From positions 248,001 to 312,000 of the forward strand of contig JAJOHG010000030.1 of the NCBI GenBank assembly GCA_021029095.1: a stretch of DNA of 64,000 nucleotides, written 5' to 3'. This document shows, piece after piece, positions 2,356 through 64,000 of the stretch. Position numbers and translations under genes: made by a program. Within the stretch, counting starts at the first letter, position 1, and every line of letters starts with the position of its first letter. The notes under the pieces were generated by a model. That model saw nothing but the letters and a program-made list of their open reading frames with translations, searched no databases and was not told where the DNA came from. The stretch comes from Phellopilus nigrolimitatus. Lineage: Eukaryota > Basidiomycota > Agaricomycetes > Hymenochaetales > Hymenochaetaceae.

Positions 2356-2632
2356 AGGCGATTCTAGCACTCGCTTGCGGCTTCCATTTGTACGATTCTG
2401 AGTCTCACTCATACATATGTATTGTACTTACTTTTGCCTAATCGTTGTACGATTTCATTCATGTACCCAACATATACATACATATCTTTTTTTTTGTCTT
2501 TCTCCTCACGAGCGCTAAACTTCGGACATGACACGTCTAACCTATTCGTCCCAAAGCACAAGAAGAGCATCATGTTTCGGCGTATACTAGTGAATCAGTA
2601 CATATCGGTCTGGAAAACGGCATCGTAATATG

Positions 2633-2637
2633 AAAAA
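2633..2637 (-). terminator. Pol III T-run terminator of tRNA-Ser
   Basis: On the minus strand a run of five T follows the tRNA 3' end by about 20 nt, as expected for RNA polymerase III termination. Confidence 0.6.
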
Positions 2638-2656
2638 GACATAAATTATTCCTTTA

Positions 2657-2759
2657 CGACACCGGCAGGATTCGAACCTACGCCCTCAAAGAGGAACAGA
2701 TAGCCAGAGAATACATCCAAGATTCGAATCTGTCGCAGTAACCACTTTGCTACGGTGTC
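2657..2759 (-). tRNA. tRNA-Ser (anticodon CGA) with ~21-nt intron
   Basis: The fold can be drawn completely: 7-bp acceptor GACACCG/CGGTGTC, discriminator G, D-arm with GG, anticodon stem ACAGA/TCTGT, loop TTCGAA-A with anticodon CGA, a class II variable arm CCTC-TTT-GAGG, and a T-arm GTAGG TTCGAAT CCTGC. About 21 nt (2702..2722) interrupt the anticodon loop one base 3' of the anticodon, the canonical tRNA intron site. The long variable arm and discriminator G fit serine. It reads UCG codons. Confidence 0.92.
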
Positions 2760-2857
2760 ATTGCGGTAATTGTCAATGAATCTCCCCCTGTGGACTGGCA
2801 AAATTTGAGTTTGGTGGAAATGATAGGTTTACAGTGTTTACACTGACAGCTGTTTGA

Positions 2858-2913
2858 CAGTCGCGGGTCAGATTGAAATGAAATGCAGTCGCGGGCCAGA
2901 CCGAAATGAAGTT
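2858..2913. repeat. Two-copy 28-bp tandem repeat
   Basis: Units 2858..2885 and 2886..2913 begin CAGTCGCGGG and share GAAATGAA; they differ at five positions, four of them transitions. No coding context. Confidence 0.6.
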
Positions 2914-3419
2914 TGTTATTTCTGCGAACCGAGATCGTGTCGTCCGTTACAGTGAGATCGCTAGCCTTGTTTCCAGTAACAAGAAATTAAAGGCCAATTT
3001 GTGCGAGACTTATGTATCATGTCAAAGAGGAAGACTCAAAAGACACGCTTGTGCCTCAAGTAAGCCGAGATATGCCTGGTGCGGATTTCTCACCACTCAA
3101 GGGGGCGATCGATGCTTATGAAGTATAGTAGACACTGGAGCATTTGTTGACGAAATACTCGAGACCGAAAGGTCAAGCACGTAAGACATCGTGACTCTCC
3201 AAAGCAAGGCACTCGAGCGTGTGGAAGCGAGCGAATATCGACAGGGTGGCAGGGGGGAAAGTCTTACTTTGCGCTGAGCCAGACTAGTAGGAACAGCGGC
3301 GAGGAGGGGGATCAGACCAAGATGCCATACACATATGTCATGTCATTGCAGAACGAGTAGATAAAGAAAAGGAATAATGCAGCATGTAACATGGACACAG
3401 GCGGTAGGCTATAGGGAGA
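2914..3419. other. Intergenic stretch, no gene seen
   Basis: No supported reading frame, RNA or repeat was found between the tandem repeat and the eL33 stop codon; it probably includes the eL33 3' UTR. Confidence 0.5.
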
Positions 3420-4128
3420 TCAAATCGTCGAGGGGTACAGCATCTGGAAGATTCAGGGAAATTTTATATGAACAATCTGCTTGAACGCTGTGAAGAGCGA
3501 AAAATGAACGCACCACACGGACGGAAGCGCCGAAAACGTGCGGGGGCAGGTTCGACCTGAATTTTGACTTGACAACGCCAGAGTTGCCGTGCGAGCGGGT
3601 CACGCGCCTATACAATTCAGAAGCATCAGCACCAAAACATCTCGAAATCGCTGAACACAGTTAGATCGCTGCTGCAAGTACTGACCCCCAGATGACGCGG
3701 ACCTTGGAGCCGTTGACCTCGCGCTTTGCGCGGTAGACGTAGGCCACACGTTTTCCGAGATAGAACTGCGCCTCCTCCTTGTTGGTGACGCCCTCGATTT
3801 CGACGAGGGAGGTGTTCGGGCGGGTGTTGCGCTTGCCGCGCTTGTGCGAGAGGACGCGGCCCTTGGAGTACAGTCTGCGAAGAGAGTGCAGTGGTTAGTG
3901 CTGAGAACTCACGAACGATAAGTCGGTTCTAAGCCAGCCAGCTGCTCGACGACATCCGTCCACGCTCCACGCCCAAGCCGTATCATCCGCTGTCCGTCCG
4001 TGCCATCCACCACCATATCCGCCATCCATCTTTTCCTCGACCTCTGACCGCTCCTTCTCATCCAAACTGACATCGAGCAGCCCAGCAGCGTTGCAAACGA
4101 CGACAGATGCTCACCTTGAGGAGCCCAT
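3420..4128 (-). CDS. RPL33: 60S ribosomal protein eL33 (L35A)
   Basis: Four exons: 4115..4128, 3686..3874, 3514..3607, 3420..3443, total 321 nt and 106 residues, the family length. The first exon is only 14 nt (ATG GGC TCC TCA AG) before a GTGAGC donor and a 240-nt intron. The second gives [37 protein letters not shown] and [13 protein letters not shown]. The third gives [17 protein letters not shown] and [12 protein letters not shown], and the last MLYPSTI. It binds 25S rRNA in the large subunit. The long first intron, common in fungal ribosomal protein genes, could hold regulatory sequence or a snoRNA, but I see no clear box C/D or H/ACA element. Confidence 0.95.
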
Positions 4129-4737
4129 TTAGTCTTGCTGGTTTGTCGATTTCACCCGCCGTGGTCAGTTTGGTGGTCCTTCGATCTTGCTTGGTTGGAC
4201 CCTGAATCACCCAAACACTGCTAAACAAGTGTCGTTTTCGATTCGCGCTTACGCCAAAACTTGTTATACAGTTTGAAATCAATGGGTTTGAGCAAAGGCC
4301 AACAGACGAATATCGGCTGGAATATACATAAACGAGGTGGTTAGACCCACATTTAAATCGAAAAAGTAGAGGCTGGGAATGAAAGAGAGCACTGATTGAA
4401 AGTATGGTGCCGACGGCACTTTCCGTGGTGCGAGAATAAAAATCAAGCCAGGCGTTTTCGTTGTCGGTTGACCAGCGACGCAGTCATCGGGCTGCACTCG
4501 GACGTCCTCGTCGACGACTGGCCGAGTAACGGAGCGCTGGCAGAGCAATTCCCGGTCCTTGGTCTGCTTTATTATTTTCTAAATATCTTTATGTTTACCG
4601 CTGTATTGTCGGTGCTCGTATTCCAAGGACACATCTAATATATCTCTTCTCGAACTTTGTGCCATTGGCGTGCGCCCGCATCTGCATTCTCTGCATTGGT
4701 TTCCTGTGCCCTGTGCCTACAAAAGCAAATCGCAATC
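4129..4737. other. Intergenic region between eL33 and ArgJ
   Basis: Divergent promoter region of eL33 (leftward) and ArgJ (rightward). No convincing frame in either strand. Confidence 0.5.
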
Positions 4738-44532: not shown

Positions 44533-44784
44533 TATCAGATAATTAGTATTACTCATGGTCACTTACGGTCTCTTAGTCAGTTTCTATTGTCTTACTCATG
44601 TTGCTCGCTCAGCACTGTATCGCATCATTATTGCGACATCTCTTTTGCTTACTGATCATGTAGCCCTTGGGTATATAAGGGCAGCTACTCCTGTACGAAT
44701 ATACAAGTACTCTGAAGCCTCTGATCTGTGTGATCTCTCTGCGCTGCCGCTTTACCTAAGAAATACCTTTGTGGATTTCTATTA
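44533..44784 (+). repeat. 5' LTR of the copia element
   Basis: Starts TATCAGATAATTAG and ends GATTTCTATTA. It differs from the 3' LTR at only two positions I could find, both transitions (about 44536 and 44621). Confidence 0.92.
44672..44678 (+). promoter_or_regulatory. LTR TATA box
   Basis: TATATAA in GGGTATATAAGGGC inside the LTR, about 110 bp before the LTR end; the same site occurs in the 3' LTR. Likely start region for genomic RNA. Confidence 0.55.
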
Positions 44785-44795
44785 GGTTATGAGCC
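44785..44795 (+). other. Primer-binding site complementary to tRNA-Met anticodon loop
   Basis: GGTTATGAGCC abuts the 5' LTR. Its complement GGCTCATAACC is the anticodon stem-loop of initiator tRNA-Met, so priming would use a cleaved half tRNA as known for Drosophila copia and yeast Ty5. Confidence 0.7.
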
Positions 44796-44832
44796 TTGGG
44801 CTCTGAGGCGCGCTTTGTACTTCGCTTAGCTT

Positions 44833-45623
44833 ATGAAACTTATTCGTCACAATCAAACCGTCACACTCGCATATACGACCTCTCGACCTCGACTCACATC
44901 TCGTCTTCACCTCGCTCAGACTGGGACTCCCATTGACCCGTGGATCCCTATTTCAAACGACCTACTTGAGGCGTTACAAGACACTCCCGACGATCTCATC
45001 CAGTTTCAGCCTAGACAGGTTGACTTCGACACACGTGTAGCTGCGTATCAAGCTAACTCGTTCAATTGGCTGTTTGATTGGGATATTTTCGCTGAGTTCC
45101 TCGCATTTATCCCTACACCTGTTATCGCTACTGCACCAGCCCAGCCACCACTCACCTATCGTCGAATTCTCACAATGGTTGAAGTCGCAAAAGTTTTCTC
45201 TGATGTCGAACAGCTTAAGCCCGACGGCTCGAATTACCGACCGTGGATCGCTCGCATCAGGCAATGCGCTCGAGCAGCAGGCGGCCGAGCCCTGCTTATT
45301 GGACCACCGGCTGCCAATGATGCGGCCATGGTTAGCCTGGACGATCAGCTCGTCGCTGCGATCAATGGGAAGCTTCCAACACAAGTTTTCCTGAAGGTTA
45401 TGACCTTCGAACACGCTCACGAAGTCCTTACGGTTTTGGAGCGCGATTATAATGTCGTTAACCAGACCGTTGAGGCAGTCACCGAAGCTAAGCTATACCA
45501 ACTCAAATGTCATGATGATAAAGGAATTGATAAGCACATCGATCAAATGCTTGACGTTCGCAGTAAACTTGCGGAATTTGGCCGCAACGTATCCGACGAA
45601 ACTTTCATCAACGCGCTCTCGGC
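44833..45623 (+). pseudogene. Copia Gag, first segment
   Basis: Open from 44833 (MKLIRHNQTV) with a second plausible start at 45175 (MVEVAKVFSDVEQLKPDGSN). Contains YRPWIARIRQCARAAGGRAL and VTEAKLYQLKCHDDKGIDKH, the copia Gag (UBN2-type) pattern. Interrupted after INALSA by MITE 1; the last 8 bases are its target duplication. Confidence 0.85.
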
Positions 45624-46009
45624 TAGGGCATAGCACAGGTTGATCCGCGGGTTTTAGCATTTTGCTCATAGCACGACACAGTCAGCTCCAAATTTAATGA
45701 TCTTATATGCGAGATGTGCGCATGAATATTGTCCACAATATGCAAAAACCCCCGTAAGGATTGGTGCAGTATTGATAGCACAAACGGCAAACGAGTCATC
45801 AAAACCCGTGGGTATCAGTACCCACGGGTCTTGATGACTCGTTTGCCTCTCCTGCTACCAATACTGCACCAATCCTTACGGGGTTTTTTGCATATTGTGG
45901 ACATTAGTCATGCGCACATCTCGCATATAAGATCATTAAATTTGGAGCTGACTGTGTCGTGCTATGAGCAAAATGCTAAAACCCGCGGATCAACCTGTGC
46001 TATGCCCTA
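45624..46009. mobile_element. Palindromic hAT-like MITE 1 (386 bp)
   Basis: The whole element is nearly one inverted repeat: TAGGGCATAGCACAGGTTGA at the left and its inverse at the right, with the hairpin centre near 45,817 (ACCCGTGGGTATC/AGTACCCACGGGT). It is flanked by the 8-bp duplication CTCTCGGC (45616..45623 and 46010..46017). The 8-bp duplication and TAGGG terminus fit the hAT superfamily. No coding capacity. Confidence 0.88.
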
Positions 46010-46017
46010 CTCTCGGC

Positions 46018-46178
46018 CTCGGTACCGGAGAGCTATCGCGACGTCATCCAAAGTCTAAAGGGCAATATCGATACCGTGAATGCAATCATCATCGCTCAAA
46101 TGGCGGCCATCAACCAGAACGTACCGGCCGGCCAGCAACCAATTCAGCCCCAGACGCGCGCTTTCACTGCCACCGAGG
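46018..46178 (+). pseudogene. Copia Gag, second segment
   Basis: Without MITE 1 and one duplication the frame continues SVPESYRDVIQSLKGN, MAAINQNVPAGQQPIQPQTR, TATEV up to MITE 2. Confidence 0.82.
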
Positions 46179-46186
46179 TAGTAAAC

Positions 46187-46551
46187 TAGGGCATAGCACG
46201 GGTCGATCCCTGGGTATTAGCATTTTGCTAATAACACAACGAGTTCGGCTTCGATTCGAATGATCTTACATGCGTTATGTGCGCATCGTTAACGTCTAGA
46301 GCATACAAAAATACACATTTAAATTGGTACATTATTGACAGCGCTAAAGGCAAACGGGTCATCAAAACCCGCATCGACGGGTATTGATGACCCGTTTGCC
46401 TCTAGTGCTGTAAATAATGCATTAATCGAAACACATTTTTTGCATTCCGTAGCAATTAACGATGCGCACATAACGCATGTAAGATCATTCGAATCGAAGC
46501 CGAACTCGTTGTGTTATTAGCAAAATGCTAATACCCAGGGATCGACCCCTA
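46187..46551. mobile_element. Palindromic hAT-like MITE 2 (365 bp)
   Basis: Same family type as MITE 1 (left end TAGGGCATAGCACGGGTCGA) but clearly diverged. The 8-bp duplication TAGTAAAC is at 46179..46186 and 46552..46559. The right terminus lacks about 9 bases corresponding to CATAGCACG of the left TIR, so the ends are asymmetric. The hairpin centre is near 46,378. Confidence 0.87.
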
Positions 46552-46559
46552 TAGTAAAC

Positions 46560-47361
46560 GCATTACGATCGAAAGCCGCCTCCAAGACCGTCTTAGCGAA
46601 GTCAGGTCAGCGCAAGGAGGAGCAGGCGAATTATTCCGGAGGAGGCCGCGGCCGCGGAGGAGGTCGTGGCAGAGGATCCGGACGAGGCGGCCGTGGTGGA
46701 CGTGGTCGCGGAGGAGGCCAGGGTCATGGCCAGCGCGATGGCAAGTCCGACGATTCCAGCAAGAAATGCTACAACTGCTCTGGTTTCGGTCACTTCGCCA
46801 ACAAATGTCCTTCGCCAAAGCGAAAGCGCGAATCGGCCAGCGAAGCGACAGACGACAAGTCGAAGAAGAAAGACGACAAGAAGGACGACAAGAAGGAGGA
46901 GAACAAGTTGACGGCTGCATCAGCTTCTGCTGCGTTTATCGAGGAGCTACCCGACAATGCCTGGCTGTGTGCCACCGAGGAGCAAGCCTCTGCGGCATCG
47001 ACTTACCGCATCGACGCCTTTGATTCCGCGGCAACCCTCCATCTCACGCTGGAGATTAATCGGCTTTACAATGTCCAGCTCACCGAGCCCATCACTATTC
47101 GCACGGCCAATGGCCAATATTTCGAGTCGACACATTCTGGAGACATGGACGTCACTGTCCCTTGCAAGGACAAACAAAATGTCATGAAGCTGAGTGACGT
47201 TCGCTATGCGCCGGATTTACACTCTACGCTTATTTCGGTCCCGAAGCTTGATAAAGCGGGCTACACGTGTCTCTTTAGTCGAGGACACTTGTGGATCAAG
47301 AACCGGGTCGGCACTATCATCGCCGACATCGCTCTCCAGAACGACTTGTACGCTATTCGCT
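46560..47361 (+). pseudogene. Copia Gag C-terminus, zinc knuckle and protease region
   Basis: Frame resumes with NALRSKAASKTVLAKSG, an RGG-like run, the zinc knuckle CYNCSGFGHFANKC and a Lys/Asp-rich linker (SKKKDDKKDDKKEENK). The protease-like part reads FDSAATLHLTLEINRLYNVQ and DVRYAPDLHSTLISVPKLDK. The catalytic triplet expected as DSG reads DSA here, which would weaken or abolish the protease. The frame stops at YAIRWHR, where the first 5.08-kb element inserted. Confidence 0.85.
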
Positions 47362-48318
47362 GGCACCGCACTGCTGCCAGCCAACTGATTCATTCAAGGC
47401 CAGCAAATGCTTGCTTGCGCAAAGTGTATGAAGCCCAGGTATAGCTGGTTAACTTTGGGCCAGCTACGCTACAGGCATTGAATAATAGGTATACCAGCTG
47501 CTTGTGCTTTATCAGGCAGTGTTAGCTAATTAAACTACTTTATAATACAGAATTGGGTATTATTAAATGTATATGCCTCGCAGAGAATTTTTTGCTTTTA
47601 AATATTGATCTAATCACTAATCTTTGCTTCTTTAGTATTAGACTGTAGCCCATCAAACATCTGACAGGTGGCCTCGGCCTCGGCCTATGCCAAACATGGA
47701 GGGTGATGCACTGCCGCACTTTTCCCATTATATAATTCAAACTCTAATGAGTGCCGCCGCCCGCCGCTACCGCCGCACTTACTGCCGACGGGCCGCTCAC
47801 CGTCGCCCGCCCTCGCGCTCACTGTTCTCAATGTCGGCTTTTTTTTTTACTTTAATTTATTTGTATACTATGGGTTAGCTACCGGACGTAGCTAAAATGA
47901 AAGAATACACTTTTTTTACTCTGAAAAACGACTGGGGGAGGTCGAGGAACGGCAATCACGCAGGAAAGAAAAAAAAAGGCGGGCAGCTCCTTTTGCCAAT
48001 CGCCCGCCCGCTTTCCTGTCCTGTGCATCGTTTCGGATCCGTTTTCTCACTCGCTGCCTGCGCTGTGTACCCCGGCGCGCTCGCTCACCCGTTCGGGGCA
48101 TGCTGCACACCGTGCCGCATTTCTGTGCTTCCTATCCACCTGCTGCCCCCACGTTCCTTGGCCGACCTGTATCTCGCTAGTGCTGAGGTTTGCTCGACCC
48201 CGCCGAGCAGTCAGAGATTGGCAACACCAACTCACACCCTCATAAAAGCACTCACTAAGGGATGGCCGCCACGGTGAGGCGGCGGCAGTGCGAGGCTCAT
48301 TCTCAGCCGCTCATTGCA

Positions 48319-48461
48319 GAGATCACGCGCGAGGAGCGCGGGGAGTTCAGTTGAGGCGAACGCGGAGACGACGGATAGGCGGCGCTGGTTCTGGTTGACC
48401 TTGACGTGCAAACATCGCCAGCGCTTGGTCGATGCGAGCAGGCGCCCGCTGCGGCACGTCA
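48319..48461 (-). pseudogene. Captured ribosomal protein uL4 (RPL4) fragment, copy A
   Basis: Encodes RSGRLLASTKRWRCLHVKVN and QNQRRLSVVSAF, then ASTELPALLARD; HVKVNQNQRR is a hallmark of uL4. It is preceded by an intron-acceptor-like CTTTTTGCAG, so it was taken from genomic DNA at an exon start. It has several replacements of otherwise conserved residues. Confidence 0.82.
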
Positions 48462-48623
48462 CTGCAAAAAGCCCAACATCCTACTTCATTTCCTGCCGTA
48501 CCCCTTAGCCCTTAGTCCACTTACTTCACCTTGTCATTTAGTAGCCGCTGTAGGGAGGTGTCTCGAGTGAGGATCGGTCAAAGCGAAAGCAAGGTACGAA
48601 TAAACTGCTGAAAGTCGAGGCGA

Positions 48624-48921
48624 TCAGGAAGCAATTTTGGCAGCGGCAGCATCGGCAGCAGCTGCAACGGCCGGGTTGACCGTCTTGCAGTCCCTGTAAC
48701 GCACGCGAGGGGGTGGGACGCAGTAGGCGATCGTACAGTTTCGGAATCACGTATTCTGCGCAAACGATCAGGCGGAGAATCCTCGAAATGAAATTTCAGC
48801 TTACCCTGGTAGACTGACTCCTCGGAGATGTCACGGATAGCGACGGACTCGACCATGTTGCGCACGGTGAAGCGCTCGATGGCCTTGTCCTTGGGAACAC
48901 AGTGCGAGCAGTTCGAGCAGC
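48624..48921 (-). pseudogene. Captured ribosomal protein eS26 fragment with intron, copy A
   Basis: Reads [38 protein letters not shown], then a retained 49-nt intron (donor GTAAGC, acceptor GCGCAG), [12 protein letters not shown], a gap where the central exon is missing, and the C-terminus [22 protein letters not shown] with stop. eS26 normally has about 119 residues; the middle is deleted here. Confidence 0.88.
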
Positions 48922-49055
48922 ACAAACCGAACGCGGATGATGGCGAGGGATGCGAGGCGGAGACCGGAAAGGAGCACAAGAGCCAGTAGAAGAACTTGAT
49001 GTACGACGTACTGCACAGGCAGCGTTAGATCGGCGCGCAACGCGGATGTTGTGGA

Positions 49056-49135
49056 TGCTCGACCATGGTGCGGACAATGGAGCACTTGATGGCCTTGTCC
49101 TTGGGTACACAGTGCGAGCAGTTCGAGCAGTGCAT
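49056..49135 (-). pseudogene. Second partial eS26 fragment, copy A
   Basis: [26 protein letters not shown]: the same eS26 segment duplicated upstream with different substitutions, then loss of homology. Confidence 0.75.
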
Positions 49136-50418
49136 GAGCTCGACATGGAGGTTATGATGCTCGCGAGGTGAACAGACTGAAAGGGACAGAGAGACGACAC
49201 GACGACGACGAGCACGACGAGCACGATGAGCACGACGAGCACGAAACTCAACATGTCACGGGTGACTTACCGGAATAGGTCATCACTTTCGTCCAAATGA
49301 AGTATGTTTTGAATCAAACGATATTGATGGGCTCGCCACAGCTACAAAACATAGCTGTAGCGCTCCACCCTCTCAATTATAAATCCCCATAAATTCATTT
49401 TATAATTATAGCTCATATAATCTTTCTTTTCAGAAACAATTAGGTCTATGTAAATGCTATATATTGAGTTATTAATCTAATAGTGCAAATTTCACTTTTT
49501 CCTCAGTGTTGCCTTTGTAGTGCTATATACAGGGTGCCCGAAGCACTGTCAGTATTTAGTATAGGTTTCTAGTACATACTTCTTCTAAATTGGAAAGTTT
49601 AAGCACCTGAGAAAGTCTACATCTTGTGTATAATAGCTTTTAATACGGGATACACTGTATGCAGCAGTTTCGAGTCTGTTAGATTTTTCCTCCATCTGAA
49701 AAGGCATTTAATCACCTAAATGTTAATCATACCAAACTATAGTATATTTATATCATATAATAAAGTCCTGAACTGTTTAAGACCTGGACAGTTGCACTGG
49801 AAGGCAAAGATGCTGCAAAAAGCTGTTTTGCAAGCTGTAGCAAATTCTGAATATTTTGGGGGCACACAAAAATTATTTCTTTGTTGCTTCAAAGCACTCT
49901 GAATGCATCCGAGACACCCTGTATTTTTTGTTTAGGAGTTTTCTATGAGAGTACAATATGTCAAGGCTTCGAACCAGTAAGGTCGAACTGGTTCCAAGAA
50001 AAGCAGACCGATCTTCAGCTTTGAACATACATGTCTCCTAGATTTGCATATTCTAGTCCCTCAATCAGTAATCAAAGTATATAAAAGGTTTCTAAGTACG
50101 TTGAAGACATATGACACGAAAATTGAGCTCGTTCGGCCCAGCCGATGGAGGTCGACAATTGTTTTGGTGAAAAGGGAGCCAAATCCCCTTTGCTCGTTAA
50201 CTAAATGCTGTATTCATCAACATCGCGAGCCTCTTAGCTTCTCAATCTTTTTTAATGGATGAAAAAATACTATATAGATGTAATTATGCGACGACAAACC
50301 GATCCGTTGCGTCGTTGAATTGTAAAAAACGAAACAGTTGTGCGCTACCGCGAGCGCTTACGAGCGCTTGCGCGGTTCGACACAACTTTCGCACGGTTGA
50401 ACATGCGTGCTCGCTGGG

Positions 50419-51235
50419 TTCGACTTGCTCAACAACGTCGTCCACGACACCCAGGACCGTATCAAGCTTAAGGTAAGTGTTTAAACACTCAGCGGGCCCA
50501 TATATAACTAACGTTATTGCTTTTATACCTATTCTATACGTTCAGGAGTCGCTAACACAGCTGTCGACGACGATTAGGCACGGGTGCACCAACTTCGCCG
50601 CGACGAACCTCAAAGGTACTACGCGCCCGCCGCGCCCGAGCCCGTGCAGCACAAGACACTCCCATAAGCGCTCGGGTGTGCAGCGATGACCACGGCACAG
50701 GCGCTGCAAAGCACGAGCACCGGGCCCGATGGGAAGGCGACGACATAACCATGCAGGCGTGTGGGACAAGTACGTGTCCTCTACGCTTCCCTGTCCTTTC
50801 CTCTCATTCTCATCTTAGGGTTTCGTTACAGATCGCGGACGCGCGTCTCACGCAAGACAGCACGATCCGCACGCACTTCCTGCGGCTCTGGCAGGCGACG
50901 CTCGCCAACTCGATCGCGATTACGCTCGAGGTGCTGCAGGCGGTCTCGGCGTCGCGGCTCGAACTTGACACGGCGAAGTAGACGCTCAAGACCGCGGGCC
51001 CCGCGAGGCAGGAACAATTGCGGCTCGAAGTCGAGAACGCCGAGGACGATCTCGTGCAAAAGACGGAGGTCGCGATCACGCTCATGAAGACCGTTCTTGA
51101 CAAGGTGCGTACGAGCTCTGTTCAATCGATGATACGTTCTCGTGCTCAACTTATTGCAGCCTGAACCCTTGAAGAACCTGAACAAGCTCGTCGGTCTCAA
51201 TTCGTCTACCTCGCATCCGCTGCAGAGGTGCTCTC
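50419..51235 (+). pseudogene. Captured BAR-domain protein gene fragment, copy A
   Basis: Reads DLLNNVVHDTQDRIKLK, then an intron (GTAAGTG...TTCAG, about 50,473-50,545), ESLTQLSTTIRHG, a diverged stretch, another intron (GTACGTG...TTACAG), IADARLTQDSTIRTHFLRLW, VLQAVSASRLELDTAK, a stop where Gln is expected, TLKTAGPARQEQLRLEVENA, EDDLVQKTEVAITLMKTVLD, a third intron, and PEPLKNLNKLV. This matches the C-terminal helices of fungal Gvp36/BIN-like BAR proteins. Three introns and a nonsense codon make it a DNA-captured pseudogene. Confidence 0.72.
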
Positions 51236-51388
51236 CGCCATAATCGCCTGCGCGTTGACACGCGAATCCATCACGACGAGCAGCCGCGGCTCCTTGAACG
51301 AGCGCGCGAGGTCATCTCCAACGTGCACATCGCCATTGTCTGTCTTCCTGTCGCATACCGATAGTACCGACTCCGCCAATCTCTCTTG

Positions 51389-51710
51389 CGGATGCGGCAC
51401 GCTCGGCGTCCAAGGCGAAGCGCAAGGTCATCTTCAAACGCGCAGAGTCGTACGTGAAGAGCTACGTCTCAAAGGAGAAGGAGGAGGTGCGCCTTAAGCG
51501 CGCGGCCCGCGCTGCGGGCGACTTCTACGTCCCGGCAGAGCCGAAAGTGTACTTCGTTGTCCGTATCCGCGGTATCAACGAAATCGCACCGAAGCCGTGT
51601 AAGATTCTGCAGCTCTCCTGCCTGTTCCAGATCAACAACAGTGTTTTCGTAAAGGTCACAAAGGCGACGCAGCAGATGCTCCGTCTCGTCGAGCCTTACA
51701 TTACTTACGG
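51389..51710 (+). pseudogene. Captured ribosomal protein uL30 (RPL7) exon, copy A
   Basis: [98 protein letters not shown], ending at a GTGCGC donor. A long intact uL30 exon with a few replacements at normally fixed positions (KPCK for KPRK, LSCLFQ for LLRLLQ). No start codon or C-terminus. Confidence 0.92.
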
Positions 51711-52446
51711 GTGCGCAATTCTTCTCTTGCGCGGGCGCGGGGAGCTCGGTTACTCTGGCCTTCCGAATCCCTTCCCCCCCTTTCGTAATTAATGCGCGCC
51801 GCTTGCTCCTTGCAAGTGGCAACTCTTGTTTAATTTAATCTCACATATAATCCCCCCTCCCCCATATGGTTTTAAATAGAGAAAAAAGAACAGTGCAAGA
51901 ACAATAGAATAGACAATAATAACTACAGTATGCAAAATAAACGAATTTATTTGATGAGTTTTTCGTTGAGCTACGCGAAGGCGGCGGCAAACAGTGAGCG
52001 GGAGGCGGGAGGTCTGCTTATGTGATCCCGACGAATCGGCGCGTGAGGGATAAATAAATAGAAGCATACAAATGTATTTGTAATTAGTCCCCCGCCCCGA
52101 TGACAATGAGATCACATCAATCAAACTCCAGGGCACAATCATAGAAGCTCCGAAGTAATACCTGTAAACTATAATCATGACACCCCTGATATTTTTAGTT
52201 TTTTGATAATAAAGAAATTTAAATTAAGTGCTATTTAAAAAAGTAGCCCCTAGGCTGCCCAGATATCATTAAATAACCCAAAATCGCTTTTTTCGGTCTG
52301 CCAGATAGCTGACCAAGCCTGCTACACAGTGAATTCAATCCCGGCAGCAACGCTGCCTTAAATTATTCAATGAACGCAGGGCCTTATACACTTTTGCCTG
52401 CTAAGCATTCGCTGGTTAGTATTGAATTATCTTCCTGGTAGGACTG

Positions 52447-53483
52447 GACTGGTAGCGTCGTCGTTTGCGGCTCTTCGTCGTTCTCAGGCTCGGTTACTGG
52501 GCCAATGTCGACTTCGACTGGTTGCTCCTCCTGAACGTCGGAGGGCTGCAAATTTAGCATTTGAATGTTGCGCTCAGTAGATACCTTGCGCTCTTTCTCC
52601 CAGTAAACGCGATGACCTTTTGCTGTTTCGTCAGGTCCAAGCCAGCGACCTAAGGTGCCGCGGTTGTCGAGCTTTTCAGCTGATTCGAGCCGAATGACGC
52701 ATCGTTGTCCAAAACGATAAACCCATTGGAGGTTCGGCGGGTGGCCGAAGCGTACCTCGTAAGGTGATCTGAAACCAAGCGCTGAGTGCGGTGTCCGATT
52801 ATAAACATATGAGACGTACTGTAAGCACTCTCCCCACAGCCATGTGGGTAAGTGCGCGCTGGCCAAATTGGCCCTTATTGCATTGAATATTGTGCCATGA
52901 GCACATTCCGCAACTCCATTTTGCTGCGGCGTATCGTGGACGGTGAGGCGGCAAATCGTGCCATTAGCCTCGAGATACTGGCTGAATTCGCGCGAAAGGA
53001 AAGCGCTGTCGTTGTCGGATTGGAGGACTTTAATCGTAATGTTGTGCTGGGTTTTAAGCAGCGATTGCCAGCCGACGTATTTTGACATGGCGTCCGATTT
53101 CGCGGTCATAGTTTGCATTTGAAGCCATCGAGTTTTGTCGTCCACGATCGTAAGCGCATAGCGTGTGTGGTTAATTGTCCTAACCTTCGCCGGTCCCCAA
53201 ATATCCATATGGAAATGATCGCCGAACTCCTTGGCGAGGGGACTGGTGCGTTCAGAAGGAATAGGTGTTCGTCGAATCTTGCCAAGCGCACAGGCGAGGC
53301 AATCCTTCTCGGTGTCCCGCTTTGGGTCGAGACGCATGCCGACTAGTTTCCCATCGTTGTTGAGACGGCGAATGTAACCATAATTGATATGGCTGAGTCG
53401 ACAGTGAATATCGTATAGCGAGAGTAGCGGCCAATCTTTAGACCGTGCGTCGGTGTCGGCAGCGTTGGCGTAATGACGGTGCC
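52447..53483 (-). pseudogene. Copia GAG-pre-integrase and integrase core, inverted segment
   Basis: Read on the minus strand: HYANAADTDARSKDWPLLSL, YDIHCRLSHINYGYIRRLN (HHCC region), CLACALGKIRRTPIPSE, DHFHMDIWGPAKVRTINHTR, YALTIVDDKTRWLQMQ, VLQSDNDSAFLSREFSQYLE, TPQQNGVAECAHGTIFNAIR and RTPHSALGFRSPYEV. The DD(35)E residues are D in MDIWGP, D in QSDN and E in GVAE. It is opposite in orientation to the rest of the copia and bounded by the 5.08-kb copies. Its upstream end joins in frame to WHR at 47,361, its downstream end to the RT part at 58,571. Confidence 0.92.
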
Positions 53484-54219
53484 CAGTCCTACCAGGAAGA
53501 TAATTCAATACTAACCAGCGAATGCTTAGCAGGCAAAAGTGTATAAGGCCCTGCGTTCATTGAATAATTTAAGGCAGCGTTGCTGCCGGGATTGAATTCA
53601 CTGTGTAGCAGGCTTGGTCAGCTATCTGGCAGACCGAAAAAAGCGATTTTGGGTTATTTAATGATATCTGGGCAGCCTAGGGGCTACTTTTTTAAATAGC
53701 ACTTAATTTAAATTTCTTTATTATCAAAAAACTAAAAATATCAGGGGTGTCATGATTATAGTTTACAGGTATTACTTCGGAGCTTCTATGATTGTGCCCT
53801 GGAGTTTGATTGATGTGATCTCATTGTCATCGGGGCGGGGGACTAATTACAAATACATTTGTATGCTTCTATTTATTTATCCCTCACGCGCCGATTCGTC
53901 GGGATCACATAAGCAGACCTCCCGCCTCCCGCTCACTGTTTGCCGCCGCCTTCGCGTAGCTCAACGAAAAACTCATCAAATAAATTCGTTTATTTTGCAT
54001 ACTGTAGTTATTATTGTCTATTCTATTGTTCTTGCACTGTTCTTTTTTCTCTATTTAAAACCATATGGGGGAGGGGGGATTATATGTGAGATTAAATTAA
54101 ACAAGAGTTGCCACTTGCAAGGAGCAAGCGGCGCGCATTAATTACGAAAGGGGGGGAAGGGATTCGGAAGGCCAGAGTAACCGAGCTCCCCGCGCCCGCG
54201 CAAGAGAAGAATTGCGCAC

Positions 54220-54541
54220 CCGTAAGTAATGTAAGGCTCGACGAGACGGAGCATCTGCTGCGTCGCCTTTGTGACCTTTACGAAAACACTGTTGTTGATC
54301 TGGAACAGGCAGGAGAGCTGCAGAATCTTACACGGCTTCGGTGCGATTTCGTTGATACCGCGGATACGGACAACGAAGTACACTTTCGGCTCTGCCGGGA
54401 CGTAGAAGTCGCCCGCAGCGCGGGCCGCGCGCTTAAGGCGCACCTCCTCCTTCTCCTTTGAGACGTAGCTCTTCACGTACGACTCTGCGCGTTTGAAGAT
54501 GACCTTGCGCTTCGCCTTGGACGCCGAGCGTGCCGCATCCG
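54220..54541 (-). pseudogene. Captured uL30 (RPL7) exon, copy B
   Basis: Mirror copy of the fragment at 51,389-51,710, same substitutions. Confidence 0.9.
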
Positions 54542-54694
54542 CAAGAGAGATTGGCGGAGTCGGTACTATCGGTATGCGACAGGAAGACAGACAATGGCGA
54601 TGTGCACGTTGGAGATGACCTCGCGCGCTCGTTCAAGGAGCCGCGGCTGCTCGTCGTGATGGATTCGCGTGTCAACGCGCAGGCGATTATGGCG

Positions 54695-55511
54695 GAGAGC
54701 ACCTCTGCAGCGGATGCGAGGTAGACGAATTGAGACCGACGAGCTTGTTCAGGTTCTTCAAGGGTTCAGGCTGCAATAAGTTGAGCACGAGAACGTATCA
54801 TCGATTGAACAGAGCTCGTACGCACCTTGTCAAGAACGGTCTTCATGAGCGTGATCGCGACCTCCGTCTTTTGCACGAGATCGTCCTCGGCGTTCTCGAC
54901 TTCGAGCCGCAATTGTTCCTGCCTCGCGGGGCCCGCGGTCTTGAGCGTCTACTTCGCCGTGTCAAGTTCGAGCCGCGACGCCGAGACCGCCTGCAGCACC
55001 TCGAGCGTAATCGCGATCGAGTTGGCGAGCGTCGCCTGCCAGAGCCGCAGGAAGTGCGTGCGGATCGTGCTGTCTTGCGTGAGACGCGCGTCCGCGATCT
55101 GTAACGAAACCCTAAGATGAGAATGAGAGGAAAGGACAGGGAAGCGTAGAGGACACGTACTTGTCCCACACGCCTGCATGGTTATGTCGTCGCCTTCCCA
55201 TCGGGCCCGGTGCTCGTGCTTTGCAGCGCCTGTGCCGTGGTCATCGCTGCACACCCGAGCGCTTATGGGAGTGTCTTGTGCTGCACGGGCTCGGGCGCGG
55301 CGGGCGCGTAGTACCTTTGAGGTTCGTCGCGGCGAAGTTGGTGCACCCGTGCCTAATCGTCGTCGACAGCTGTGTTAGCGACTCCTGAACGTATAGAATA
55401 GGTATAAAAGCAATAACGTTAGTTATATATGGGCCCGCTGAGTGTTTAAACACTTACCTTAAGCTTGATACGGTCCTGGGTGTCGTGGACGACGTTGTTG
55501 AGCAAGTCGAA
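54695..55511 (-). pseudogene. Captured BAR-domain gene fragment, copy B
   Basis: Mirror copy of 50,419-51,235 with the same retained introns and the same in-frame stop. Confidence 0.7.
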
Positions 55512-56796
55512 CCCAGCGAGCACGCATGTTCAACCGTGCGAAAGTTGTGTCGAACCGCGCAAGCGCTCGTAAGCGCTCGCGGTAGCGCACAACTGTTTCG
55601 TTTTTTACAATTCAACGACGCAACGGATCGGTTTGTCGTCGCATAATTACATCTATATAGTATTTTTTCATCCATTAAAAAAGATTGAGAAGCTAAGAGG
55701 CTCGCGATGTTGATGAATACAGCATTTAGTTAACGAGCAAAGGGGATTTGGCTCCCTTTTCACCAAAACAATTGTCGACCTCCATCGGCTGGGCCGAACG
55801 AGCTCAATTTTCGTGTCATATGTCTTCAACGTACTTAGAAACCTTTTATATACTTTGATTACTGATTGAGGGACTAGAATATGCAAATCTAGGAGACATG
55901 TATGTTCAAAGCTGAAGATCGGTCTGCTTTTCTTGGAACCAGTTCGACCTTACTGGTTCGAAGCCTTGACATATTGTACTCTCATAGAAAACTCCTAAAC
56001 AAAAAATACAGGGTGTCTCGGATGCATTCAGAGTGCTTTGAAGCAACAAAGAAATAATTTTTGTGTGCCCCCAAAATATTCAGAATTTGCTACAGCTTGC
56101 AAAACAGCTTTTTGCAGCATCTTTGCCTTCCAGTGCAACTGTCCAGGTCTTAAACAGTTCAGGACTTTATTATATGATATAAATATACTATATAGTTTGG
56201 TATGATTAACATTTAGGTGATTAAATGCCTTTTCAGATGGAGGAAAAATCTAACAGACTCGAAACTGCTGCATACAGTGTATCCCGTATTAAAAGCTATT
56301 ATACACAAGATGTAGACTTTCTCAGGTGCTTAAACTTTCCAATTTAGAAGAAGTATGTACTAGAAACCTATACTAAATACTGACAGTGCTTCGGGCACCC
56401 TGTATATAGCACTACAAAGGCAACACTGAGGAAAAAGTGAAATTTGCACTATTAGATTAATAACTCAATATATAGCATTTACATAGACCTAATTGTTTCT
56501 GAAAAGAAAGATTATATGAGCTATAATTATAAAATGAATTTATGGGGATTTATAATTGAGAGGGTGGAGCGCTACAGCTATGTTTTGTAGCTGTGGCGAG
56601 CCCATCAATATCGTTTGATTCAAAACATACTTCATTTGGACGAAAGTGATGACCTATTCCGGTAAGTCACCCGTGACATGTTGAGTTTCGTGCTCGTCGT
56701 GCTCATCGTGCTCGTCGTGCTCGTCGTCGTCGTGTCGTCTCTCTGTCCCTTTCAGTCTGTTCACCTCGCGAGCATCATAACCTCCATGTCGAGCTC

Positions 56797-56876
56797 ATGC
56801 ACTGCTCGAACTGCTCGCACTGTGTACCCAAGGACAAGGCCATCAAGTGCTCCATTGTCCGCACCATGGTCGAGCA
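56797..56876 (+). pseudogene. Second partial eS26 fragment, copy B
   Basis: Mirror copy of 49,056-49,135. Confidence 0.73.
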
Positions 56877-57010
56877 TCCACAACATCCGCGTTGCGCGCC
56901 GATCTAACGCTGCCTGTGCAGTACGTCGTACATCAAGTTCTTCTACTGGCTCTTGTGCTCCTTTCCGGTCTCCGCCTCGCATCCCTCGCCATCATCCGCG
57001 TTCGGTTTGT

Positions 57011-57308
57011 GCTGCTCGAACTGCTCGCACTGTGTTCCCAAGGACAAGGCCATCGAGCGCTTCACCGTGCGCAACATGGTCGAGTCCGTCGCTATCCGTG
57101 ACATCTCCGAGGAGTCAGTCTACCAGGGTAAGCTGAAATTTCATTTCGAGGATTCTCCGCCTGATCGTTTGCGCAGAATACGTGATTCCGAAACTGTACG
57201 ATCGCCTACTGCGTCCCACCCCCTCGCGTGCGTTACAGGGACTGCAAGACGGTCAACCCGGCCGTTGCAGCTGCTGCCGATGCTGCCGCTGCCAAAATTG
57301 CTTCCTGA
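57011..57308 (+). pseudogene. Captured eS26 fragment with intron, copy B
   Basis: Mirror copy of 48,624-48,921; the retained intron is at 57,128-57,176. Confidence 0.87.
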
Positions 57309-57470
57309 TCGCCTCGACTTTCAGCAGTTTATTCGTACCTTGCTTTCGCTTTGACCGATCCTCACTCGAGACACCTCCCTACAGCGGCTACTAAATGACA
57401 AGGTGAAGTAAGTGGACTAAGGGCTAAGGGGTACGGCAGGAAATGAAGTAGGATGTTGGGCTTTTTGCAG

Positions 57471-57613
57471 TGACGTGCCGCAGCGGGCGCCTGCTCGCAT
57501 CGACCAAGCGCTGGCGATGTTTGCACGTCAAGGTCAACCAGAACCAGCGCCGCCTATCCGTCGTCTCCGCGTTCGCCTCAACTGAACTCCCCGCGCTCCT
57601 CGCGCGTGATCTC
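57471..57613 (+). pseudogene. Captured uL4 (RPL4) fragment, copy B
   Basis: Mirror copy of 48,319-48,461, again right after TTTTTGCAG. Confidence 0.8.
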
Positions 57614-58570
57614 TGCAATGAGCGGCTGAGAATGAGCCTCGCACTGCCGCCGCCTCACCGTGGCGGCCATCCCTTAGTGAGTGCTTTTATGAGGGTGTGA
57701 GTTGGTGTTGCCAATCTCTGACTGCTCGGCGGGGTCGAGCAAACCTCAGCACTAGCGAGATACAGGTCGGCCAAGGAACGTGGGGGCAGCAGGTGGATAG
57801 GAAGCACAGAAATGCGGCACGGTGTGCAGCATGCCCCGAACGGGTGAGCGAGCGCGCCGGGGTACACAGCGCAGGCAGCGAGTGAGAAAACGGATCCGAA
57901 ACGATGCACAGGACAGGAAAGCGGGCGGGCGATTGGCAAAAGGAGCTGCCCGCCTTTTTTTTTCTTTCCTGCGTGATTGCCGTTCCTCGACCTCCCCCAG
58001 TCGTTTTTCAGAGTAAAAAAAGTGTATTCTTTCATTTTAGCTACGTCCGGTAGCTAACCCATAGTATACAAATAAATTAAAGTAAAAAAAAAAGCCGACA
58101 TTGAGAACAGTGAGCGCGAGGGCGGGCGACGGTGAGCGGCCCGTCGGCAGTAAGTGCGGCGGTAGCGGCGGGCGGCGGCACTCATTAGAGTTTGAATTAT
58201 ATAATGGGAAAAGTGCGGCAGTGCATCACCCTCCATGTTTGGCATAGGCCGAGGCCGAGGCCACCTGTCAGATGTTTGATGGGCTACAGTCTAATACTAA
58301 AGAAGCAAAGATTAGTGATTAGATCAATATTTAAAAGCAAAAAATTCTCTGCGAGGCATATACATTTAATAATACCCAATTCTGTATTATAAAGTAGTTT
58401 AATTAGCTAACACTGCCTGATAAAGCACAAGCAGCTGGTATACCTATTATTCAATGCCTGTAGCGTAGCTGGCCCAAAGTTAACCAGCTATACCTGGGCT
58501 TCATACACTTTGCGCAAGCAAGCATTTGCTGGCCTTGAATGAATCAGTTGGCTGGCAGCAGTGACCAGTC

Positions 58571-60369
58571 ACCAGTTCAGACGAAACGCTCGTATCCGAG
58601 GATACCAGCACCGAGGAAGGACGTGGCAAACGCCAAAAGAGGACATCGCGCCGTGTCCAACAACTCGAATACGATGAAGACGCCCCTCCACCACAGGCTA
58701 TGTCAGGCGAAGTCTGGCTAGCCGCAGGAGGAGACAACCAAGACGACCCGACCACCATCGCCCAAGTCAACAAACGCCCTGACGCCGCGCAATGGTACAA
58801 TGCCATGAACACCGAATCGAATGTTCTCATTCAGCGCGAAGTCTTCGAATACGTCGACCTTCCACCGGGCGCCAAAACCATTGGCTTGCGGTTTGTTCAC
58901 CGCACTAAGCGCCGGGCGGATGGAACCATCGATAAGTATAAATCTCGGTTGCTCAAGGTTTTTTGCAGGTCGATGGAGTGGATTATTACTCCGACGACAC
59001 ATTCGCACCCGTCGCTCGTCTCGCCACAGTTCGCGCCATATTGGCATACGCCGCTGCACACGATATGGAGATTCAGCAGATCGACATCAAGTCAGCATAC
59101 CTATACGGCAAACTTGACGACGACGAAATCATTTACGCACGGCCGCCGGCTGGTTATACCATGCCCGGCATCAAACCAGGACAAGTCTTGCGCCTTCGTA
59201 GGGCGCTTTATGGACTTAAGCAGTCAGGACGACGATGGTATCAGGTATTATGCAAGATGCTTGCCTCAGCAGGGCTAAGTCGTGCCAACAAAGAATATGC
59301 GGTTTGGTTTCGTCATCACCCAGATGGGGCCATGACAATAACATTCTCGCATGTTGACGATTTAACGCTTATTTCGAGCAGCGTCGCATACCTCGCCAAA
59401 TTAAAGGAATTAATCGGCAAACAGGTAGAGTTTACCGATGGAGGAGAAATTAATTGGCTTTTAGGCATTGAAATCAAGCGTGACCGCGCTAAACGAACGA
59501 TCATGCTACGCCAGCTCTCATACATCGACACCATCCTCCATCGATACGGTTTCGCCGACGCTCGTGACGCCAACACGCCTATGCTCCCCGATGCAAAACT
59601 AACGAAGGACAACTGTCCCACCAACGACGCCGACATCGAGGAAATGGCAAAGCGACCCTTTCGAGGCGCTACAGGAGCACTGCGATACGCTACGGACATC
59701 ACTCGCTACGATACCGCCTACGCAGTAGGACAACTCGTGCGGTTCATGGAGAACCCGGGCTACGCCCACTGGGAAGCTGTGAAGCGTGTCTTCCAGTATC
59801 TCAAAGCGACGAAGGAACAATGGTTAGTTTTGGGAGGAGAAGGACAAGGATTGGTTGGATATTCGGATGCGGACGGCATGTCCACTGAGGGACAACACGC
59901 CATTTCTGGCTACGTTTTCAAGTTATTCGGTGCCGCGATCTCATGGTCATCGAAGCGGCAGGAGATCGTTACACTCTCCACTACTGAAGCCGAGTACGTC
60001 GCCCTCACACATGCTGCCAAAGAAGCGATTTGGCTTGCAGACATCCTACACGACGTCCTCAAAATGAACACCCTCCCCGTCACCATCCTCTGTGACAATC
60101 AGTCGGCCCTCGCCACGGCCAAGGAGGAGCGGTTCCACCCTCGTACGAAACACATCGATATTCGTTACCACTGGGCCAAGGAGGAGCGGTTCCACCCTCG
60201 TACGAAACACATCGATATTCGTTACCACTGGATTCGCGAGCACGTTGACAAGTGTACTATTCACCTCGAATACGTCAAAACGGACGACAACGAGGCAGAC
60301 ATGTTTACCAAGGCGCTTGTCCCTGTTAAAGTCAAACGCTTCACCGAAAGACTCGGATTGCGCGTTTGA
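58571..60369 (+). pseudogene. Copia reverse transcriptase and RNase H
   Basis: The linker EYDEDAPPPQAMSGEVWLAA leads to DAAQWYNAMNTESNVLIQRE, YVDLPPGAKTIGLRFVHRTK and DGTIDKYKSRL. Near 58,950 the frame is lost: CGGTTGCTCAAGG lacks 1 or 4 bases compared with the expected RLVAQGFLQ. It resumes as QVDGVDYYSDDTFAPVARLA, QIDIKSAYLYGKLDDDEIIY, RRALYGLKQSGRRWYQVL and the RT active site FSHVDDLTL. RNase H motifs GYSDADGMST, LSTTEAEYVAL and ILCDNQSAL follow. A 57-bp in-frame tandem duplication (60118..60174, 60175..60231) doubles AKEERFHPRTKHIDIRYHW. Ends GLRV-stop. Confidence 0.93.
60118..60231 (+). repeat. 57-bp in-frame tandem duplication in RNase H
   Basis: Two identical 57-bp units encode AKEERFHPRTKHIDIRYHW twice next to the RNase H active site; related proteins have this segment once. 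Confidence 0.95.
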
Positions 60370-60376
60370 GGAGGAG
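60368..60376 (+). other. Polypurine tract of the copia element
   Basis: GAGGAGGAG immediately upstream of the 3' LTR, the expected plus-strand primer site. Confidence 0.75.
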
Positions 60377-60628
60377 TATTAGATAATTAGTATTACTCAT
60401 GGTCACTTACGGTCTCTTAGTCAGTTTCTATTGTCTTACTCATGTTGCTCGCTCAGCACTGTATCACATCATTATTGCGACATCTCTTTTGCTTACTGAT
60501 CATGTAGCCCTTGGGTATATAAGGGCAGCTACTCCTGTACGAATATACAAGTACTCTGAAGCCTCTGATCTGTGTGATCTCTCTGCGCTGCCGCTTTACC
60601 TAAGAAATACCTTTGTGGATTTCTATTA
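60377..60628 (+). repeat. 3' LTR of the copia element
   Basis: Starts TATTAGATAATTAG, ends GATTTCTATTA and is followed by ACTAC. Two differences from the 5' LTR in 252 bp. Confidence 0.92.
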
Positions 60629-63177: not shown

Positions 63178-63498
63178 CGGGCAGTTCAGATAGCCGAAGA
63201 AACCTCGCGGTACGAACCCTCGCTTCGGCTTCGCCGACGGCGCAGAAGAAGTAGGGGACATATCACGGGATGAGCAGGGTTAGGATCGGCGCATCGACCT
63301 CAGATAGTAGACGACCGAGTAGTTTAGCCGATCCTGTATTTTAGGCTCAGAGCTGCACCTCGGTGAGGGCAGCTTGCGCACCCCCTTCGTGTTCCCAGTA
63401 TTGACCATTTAGTTCATTTTCTCCACGGCCCGAGTCAGTGTATCTCATCGCCGAGTTCATTAGCTCGCGCTTTCGTTTCTCAGTCTTTAGTGCGCCTG
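63178..63498 (+). repeat. Left arm of terminal inverted repeat at window end
   Basis: The inverse complement matches 63680..64000 base for base where I compared it. The inner end is TTTAGTGCGCCTG. The arm contains the start of a frame beginning MSPTSSAPSAKPKRGF on the minus strand. The loop 63499..63679 is 181 bp of CT-rich sequence. Confidence 0.85.
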
Positions 63499-63679: not shown

Positions 63680-64000
63680 CAGGCGCACTAAAGACTGAGA
63701 AACGAAAGCGCGAGCTAATGAACTCGGCGATGAGATACACTGACTCGGGCCGTGGAGAAAATGAACTAAATGGTCAATACTGGGAACACGAAGGGGGTGC
63801 GCAAGCTGCCCTCACCGAGGTGCAGCTCTGAGCCTAAAATACAGGATCGGCTAAACTACTCGGTCGTCTACTATCTGAGGTCGATGCGCCGATCCTAACC
63901 CTGCTCATCCCGTGATATGTCCCCTACTTCTTCTGCGCCGTCGGCGAAGCCGAAGCGAGGGTTCGTACCGCGAGGTTTCTTCGGCTATCTGAACTGCCCG
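63680..64000 (-). repeat. Right arm of inverted repeat, continues past window
   Basis: Mirror of the left arm; the plus-strand frame from 63919 (MSPTSSAPSAKPKRGF, VPRGFFGYLNCP) runs off the end. True arm length is therefore unknown. Confidence 0.85.

Follow-up and report, generated by a model that had tools for sequence, protein, structure and literature searches.

Results

A probable Pack-type KDZ element in Phellopilus nigrolimitatus

A stretch of 64,000 nucleotides from the genome of the wood-decay fungus Phellopilus nigrolimitatus (Hymenochaetales, Agaricomycetes; contig JAJOHG010000030.1, positions 248,001 to 312,000; hereafter the window) was investigated for a 5,078-bp element that occupies its positions 47369 to 52446. 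The element very probably belongs to a non-autonomous, Kyakuja-like family of KDZ transposons that carries captured fragments of six host genes. A first-pass annotation of the window had proposed a Pack-type element with terminal inverted repeats (TIRs) and 7-bp target site duplications (TSDs), into which several genes of a basidiomycete host had been captured. The analysis supported this proposal, and the cargo now comprises six genes, five of them ribosomal. The second copy of the element in the window, the eL19 and uS2 fragments and the Ty1/copia element surrounding both copies were absent from that annotation. The coordinates of all features are listed in Table 1.

Copies, boundaries and target site duplications

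The ends of the element were searched for in the P. nigrolimitatus genome (56.4 Mb in 635 contigs, labelled C1, C13, C25, C90, C168 and so on). The first-pass annotation had named solitary termini as fatal to its interpretation; the first 200 bp of the element gave at least 10 genomic matches and the last 200 bp at least 9, both window copies counted. Nine copies had two ends: two in the window, two on C346 and one each on C112, C90, C13, C25 and C168. A match on C624 lacked the first 4 bases, yielded no 3' end and was excluded from the copy counts. The ends CACTG..GGACTG (5'-CA..TG-3') were present in all nine two-ended copies, and all seven TSD bases matched in each of them, crosswise in the case of the window pair (chance 4^-7 each). 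Eight of these sites hold copies with cargo between the shared ends, and a 7-bp TSD accompanies every one of the eight.

The annotated boundaries were exact to the base. The termini were likewise confirmed as imperfect inverted repeats, with 97 of 153 aligned positions identical (63%) and an E value of 4e-10 in that alignment. The 7-bp target duplication held in part: perfect 7-bp TSDs exist, but the immediate flanks of copy 1 (GGCACCG and GACTGGT) do not match each other, and the duplication is visible only crosswise with copy 2. This second copy lies in inverted orientation and differs from the first by a single 2-base indel. Read along copy 2 itself, its flanks are GACTGGT and GGCACCG, so that the four flanks pair crosswise as two perfect 7-bp TSDs. 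In agreement with the annotation, no transposase was recognised at E 0.01 when 47369-52170 was translated in six frames and scanned against Pfam (the final 276 bp lay outside the scan). A search of the window for tRNA genes found none.

The two copies on C346 (C346a and C346b) were identical over 5,107 bp and lie at different sites. Relative to these two, the C13 copy showed 2 base differences and a 290-bp insertion, and the C90 copy 141 base differences. The C25 copy is 11.8 kb long and contains extra sequence. As some copies are identical or nearly so, movement continued after capture. Copy 1 was ∼88% identical at ungapped positions to the copies on C112, C90, C346 (a and b) and C13. When the same comparison was made by region, identity was 79-87% in element positions 1781-3873 and 95-100% at both ends; because the middle is more diverged than the ends, the copies look like mosaics.

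Captured gene fragments

Fragments of six host genes lie inside the element ends, and their parental genes lie elsewhere, at six loci. The uL4, eS26 (twice), BAR and uL30 fragments of the first-pass annotation were all present, each matching an intact-looking gene of the same genome, and alignment to the host genes gave identities from 76.5% (uL4) to 92.6% (uL30). The parental genes are located on six different contigs, and thus not in the same order at one ordinary locus, the finding that would have spoken against the annotation. The host genes were identified by Pfam (uL4, eL19, uL3 and uS2), by reading of the translation (eS26 and uL30) or by protein search (BAR); in the host eL19 gene, a stretch of 119 aa was recognised by PF01280 and PF25476. 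Over the window element, Pfam recognised uL30, eS26 and BAR, and large parts matched no family. No family was recognised by Pfam in the uL4, the short uS2, the eS26 C-terminal and the upstream BAR fragments, which were assigned by DNA alignment to the host genes.

A single alignment covers both exons and introns of the BAR gene, and the uL30 piece extends 17 bp beyond the splice donor; the exon limits of BAR, eS26 and uL30 were set by reading. The intron sequence retained in these three fragments indicates capture at the DNA level. The uS2 piece begins 1 bp beyond the end of the BAR match. At E 0.001, the matches of the seven host genes (the six cargo parents and uL3) in the window were confined to the two copies. 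An eL19-bearing, KDZ-like stretch from C112 gave two matches of 32-35 bp at 45618-46216 of the window.

Table 1. Features of the window, with one copy of the sister family for comparison (host loci are given by contig and locus label).
Feature	Position	Strand	Remarks
Copy 1, non-autonomous Pack-type KDZ element (probable), 5,078 bp	47369..52446	+	both ends recur genome-wide; TSDs match crosswise
Copy 2, inverted, 5,080 bp	53484..58563	-	99.96% identity to copy 1 over 5,081 aligned positions including one flanking base
5' terminal block, 194 bp	47369..47562	+	89.7% to the C168 element, which bears a KDZ transposase
3' terminal block, 285 aligned positions	52166..52446	+	90.2% to the C168 element
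TSD 1, GGCACCG	47362..47368	+	partner (reverse complement) 53477..53483, strand -
TSD 2, GACTGGT	52447..52453	+	partner (reverse complement) 58564..58570, strand -
eL19 (RPL19) fragment	48189..48269	+	79.5% over 83 aligned positions to host gene on C1 (L060), E 8e-13
uL4 (RPL4) fragment	48279..48457	-	76.5% over 183 aligned positions to host gene on C113 (L040); host gene PF00573
eS26 (RPS26) 3' part, intron sequence partly kept (by reading)	48526..48924	-	85.4% and 90.2% to host gene (L032); PF01283, E 9e-15
Shorter eS26 piece, a direct duplicate 210 bp away from the first	49058..49148	-	86.8% to host gene, 89% to first piece; PF01283, E 3e-9
Gvp36-like BAR gene fragment	50541..51241	+	81.8% over 765 aligned positions to host gene on C179 (L033); PF10455, E 9.5e-16
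uS2 (RPS0) fragment	51243..51312	-	88.6% over 70 bp to host gene on C603; host gene PF00318
uL30 (RPL7) internal exon and start of next intron	51405..51727	+	92.6% ungapped over 323 bp to host gene on C555 (L031:625-947); PF08079, PF00327
Ty1/copia element hosting both insertions	44533..60628	+	long terminal repeats 44533-44784 and 60377-60628 (2/252 differences); 5-bp TSD ACTAC
Spacer between the copies, 1,037 bp of copia sequence	52447..53483	-	inverted relative to the remaining copia element; one 7-bp TSD copy per end
Sister family copy, 4,320 bp	on C625		7-bp TSD GATCACG; ends CACTGG../..GGACTG

The probable C168 partner and superfamily placement

The first-pass annotation had suggested a search for an autonomous relative encoding a transposase, and a candidate was found on C168. 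This 16,647-bp element has the same ends and a 7-bp TSD, and it encodes stretches matching the KDZ transposase (PF18758, E 1.1e-40) and the CxC2 cysteine cluster (PF18803, E 2.2e-37). Apart from the two terminal blocks, it has only one match of 56 positions near the 5' end in common with the window element, in which the Pfam scan found no KDZ transposase. The first 9.5 kb of the C168 element were fully scanned against Pfam and gave two matches only, both below the cut-off; the remaining ∼7 kb were scanned as selected open frames. No TET/JBP domain was found in the scanned parts. A protein search with the CxC2 stretch returned no relative at E 0.001; full-length relatives perhaps lie outside the length limits of the tool. 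At least 73 KDZ matches were present in the genome, many of which are pieces of one gene and some apparently alleles. At ∼4447-4725 of the C168 element, a weak match to PF00384 (E 4e-4, below the cut-off) resembles the complex I 75-kDa subunit by reading.

Together, the KDZ and CxC2 domains of the C168 element, the ends it shares with the window element and the 7-bp TSDs identify the cargo-bearing window element as Pack-type and very probably Kyakuja-like. In a recent survey, two Kyakuja families of Laccaria are described as having 7-bp TSDs, CA..TG ends and no TIRs, and 8-bp TSDs are given for Zisupton and one Dileera family (Kojima, 2025; PMC12730594). The 7-bp TSD observed here (all nine two-ended copies and the sister copy on C625) fits Kyakuja and not the 8 bp of Zisupton/Dileera. 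MULEs make TSDs of ∼9 bp, CACTA/EnSpm elements have 3-bp TSDs and CACTA ends, and Helitrons have no TSD and TC..CTRR ends. A Pack-MULE was ruled out by the 7-bp TSD and the KDZ partner, a CACTA/EnSpm element by the 7-bp TSD and the CACTG ends, and a Helitron by the 7-bp TSDs and the terminal sequences. In the proposed mechanism, a transposase supplied by the C168 element or a relative would bind the shared ends and move the copies by cut and paste.

The inverted pair within a copia element

Both window copies are inserted in one Ty1/copia element, a label given by reading of the translations. The spacer between them lies the wrong way round for the copia reading frame. Once its 1,037 bp were turned, the frame was open across both joins, and each join then kept one TSD. 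The crosswise match of the four flanks indicates that the spacer was inverted, and together with the restored frame it argues for two insertions followed by an inversion. The copia element would have received the two copies in opposite orientations, after which their recombination with each other would have inverted the 1-kb spacer. The inversion may have arisen either in this way, in the fungus, or by a flip in the assembly.

Two long palindromes were present in the 5' part of the copia element, at 45624-46009 and 46200-46548 (94.6% and 86.9% self-complementary, ∼73% alike). An in-frame tandem duplication with a period of 57 bp was located in its RNase H-like region (60117-60231). Beyond the copia element, a perfect 321-bp inverted repeat (63178-63498 / 63680-64000) reaches the end of the window.

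Weighing of the element interpretation

Almost no weight can be given to the view that the fragments are an ordinary host locus or a pseudogene cluster without any mobile element. Only the presence of pseudogene-like sequence favors it; the recurrence of the unit, with perfect 7-bp TSDs, at eight sites refutes it, and the parents of the fragments are on separate contigs. The two near-identical 5-kb arms flanking a 1-kb spacer could also be taken for one composite or foldback unit instead of two insertions. We regard this as extremely unlikely, as the four flanks are two different TSDs, which refute a single unit, the turned spacer continues in frame from both outer copia flanks, and single copies are present elsewhere in the genome. 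A further possibility is that the element is a member of a different superfamily that makes 7-bp TSDs, for instance hAT7, of which families have been described from rust fungi, and that the C168 transposase comes from an unrelated nested element. On a scan that covered ∼7 kb of the C168 element as selected open frames, this appears very unlikely, given that the KDZ and CxC2 domains lie within a single unit of 16,647 bp that has the shared ends and the TSD, and that TSD length and CA..TG ends agree with the published Kyakuja families.

Several observations nevertheless weigh against a gene-capturing and mobile Kyakuja-like element. The putative transposase of the C168 element was seen as separate stretches, one with a stop by the reading of the search. 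The placement in Kyakuja was made from TSD length, end letters and domains, and the putative mobility is read from sequence. The ends show weak TIRs, as opposed to none in the two Laccaria families, although KDZ elements of Cryptococcus do have TIRs and the weak TIRs therefore do not speak against KDZ. Finally, the uL30 fragment of the window copy differed from its host gene by 16 silent and 7 changing substitutions where 14 changing ones were expected (p 0.003). Six other copies showed the same lean (p 0.0003 to 0.03 by a simple binomial, the copies not being independent). This apparent silent excess exceeds what capture followed by neutral decay predicts, and could be accounted for by constraint or by a uL30 donor of another lineage. 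The changing and silent counts of BAR and eS26 fit capture and neutral decay (one-sided p of at least 0.2 in every row), and this cargo behaves as non-coding passenger DNA. Purifying selection on uL30 between copies was considered and dropped; the ratio of changing to silent differences ranged from 1:3 to 11:9 in six pairs, which is too few, and the C25 copy has a stop.

Order of capture

A sister family of the element was found, and two of its copies were examined, one on C625 and the 5' end of one that starts at C112:15015. Their cargo consists of eS26 and BAR, without uL30, uL4, uS2, uL3 and eL19. Five more likely members were located by DNA search, as matches without read ends, on C390, C112 (2.19 Mb), C114, C212 and C53. 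The uL30 fragment, the one most like its parent, is absent from both sister copies. As the sister family carries eS26 and BAR only, its cargo suggests a stepwise capture in which these two came first; alternatively, the sister family may have lost cargo. Breaks in the element could have been repaired by template switching to host genes, by which the fragments would have been gained one after another. The eL19 piece and its adjoining DNA (window 48033-48269) were also found at C168:65.1-65.4 kb (L057), in a KDZ family with different ends. That this module is common to two KDZ families with different ends suggests that cargo modules were exchanged.

Translation genes in the cargo of KDZ elements

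The cargo of KDZ elements in this fungus is likely biased towards translation genes. The C168 element contains three uS2 pieces, and uL4 adjoins KDZ on C290 and C90. On C57 (L041, C57:3830-4091), at least four tandem 50-bp pieces of a uL30 exon, ∼70 bp apart, lie between a KDZ gene and the element end; this unit was also present on C9, and matches were also found on C244 and C555. Two tandem pieces of uL3, a gene chosen without prior sign of it, were found on C631. Both ends are defined for the C168 element only, and not for the KDZ-linked stretches on C290, C90, C57, C9 and C631. As these stretches were found by searches with ribosomal sequences, the sample is biased.

A less biased test drew on a second KDZ family, recognisable by its end GAGCCGTACCAACCAA, which occurred at 22 sites versus 3 for the reversed pattern; its other end was sought and not found. 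At 15 of the 22 sites a KDZ match lay within 10 kb, and eight of those had cargo not yet recognised. The five sites with the shortest interval between gene and end were scanned in six frames against all Pfam at E 0.01 (on C146, the 4.9 kb nearest the end only). Gene families were recognised in two intervals, eL19 (3e-6) on C168:64-68 kb and eS19 (6e-10 and 3e-7) with eIF3a (6e-9) on C146, and all of them are translational. The C168 stretch had been seen earlier as DNA similar to the window element, so that its pick was not fully independent. The other three intervals (C625:495 kb, C96 and C401) contained no Pfam gene family at E 0.01; the first of them matches host uS2 DNA, and nothing was found in the other two. 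In the controls, the tubulin hits corresponded to three genes in several pieces, of which two were each present at two places, and the actin-family hits to actin and actin-related genes; judged by eye, neither family yielded an isolated fragment. With two control families and five intervals the test is small, and conserved genes are easier to recognise. A regular distance of the ribosomal pieces from the end (∼650-1,300 bp in several families) was rejected, eS19 on C146 being ∼3 kb from the end. Captured promoters were rejected as well, because the eS26, uL30 and uL4 pieces begin inside the genes.

We lean towards a mutational or detection effect as the cause of the bias: ribosomal protein genes, being highly transcribed and conserved, would be easy templates for repair and easy to recognise. 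This is favored by the existence of non-ribosomal cargo (BAR, and the weak PF00384 stretch in the C168 element), by the apparent lack of captured promoters, by the large parts of the element without a Pfam match and by the two of five intervals in which no cargo gene was recognised. The control results run counter to it, as tubulin and actin are conserved and abundant too, and so does the purely translational content of the Pfam families in the five intervals. It is unlikely that the translation-gene fragments are instead a recurrent, selected component of KDZ elements in this fungus. On that reading, pieces of essential and highly expressed self genes would let the elements be taken for self by small-RNA silencing, or hold the host hostage in it. 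If this were true, the inverted pair, lying inside a transcription unit of copia, would naturally form a hairpin from which small RNAs arise. Mu killer of maize is a comparable source.

Comparison with known systems and significance

That DNA transposons of fungi can capture genes is already established. The Kyakuja families share with the element the 7-bp TSD, the CA..TG ends and a basidiomycete host, and the C168 partner encodes KDZ and CxC2 domains. In the survey, which treats the capture of a TET/JBP gene, the two Laccaria families lack TIRs and carry that gene (Kojima, 2025; PMC12730594), whereas the ends described here are weakly inverted and the small non-autonomous copies with several host gene fragments are a feature of the present family. 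KDZ1-3 of Cryptococcus neoformans also combine a KDZ transposase with CxC, and their mobility was shown by experiment. Their TIRs are 139-241 bp and their TSDs 4-8 bp long, and captured host fragments are unmentioned in the accessible portion of that article (PMC12810828). Pack-MULEs and the animal Pack-TIR elements are likewise TIR elements with captured outside DNA, for which template-switch repair is the proposed origin; hAT, TcMariner and MULE are named in the available text, which does not mention KDZ or Zisupton (PMC8277862). A hAT transposon of Pseudocercospora captured and amplified a housekeeping gene, histone H3, but it concerns one gene and another superfamily, with copies inactivated by repeat-induced point mutation (PMC6710886). 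The Helitrons of Pleurotus are gene-carrying elements in an agaricomycete (PMC4289320). The present element has ends of the cut-and-paste type and TSDs, whereas Helitrons are rolling-circle elements and are not known to make TSDs.

No report of a KDZ element carrying gene fragments was found in the literature searched, chiefly open-access papers screened by titles and the beginnings of abstracts. The remark in the first-pass annotation that this is not a standard described family thus needs to be divided: the superfamily is known (KDZ, with Kyakuja nearest), and Pack-type KDZ elements are unreported in that literature.

With this element KDZ, a seldom studied superfamily, joins the transposons that take up and rearrange pieces of host genes. 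It offers a clear fungal case, in which one can see the ends, the TSDs, a likely partner and the parental genes, as well as some of the order in which capture took place. The ribosomal and translation pieces beside KDZ genes raise a testable question, namely whether they reflect capture led by transcription, a bias in recognition, or an escape from silencing.

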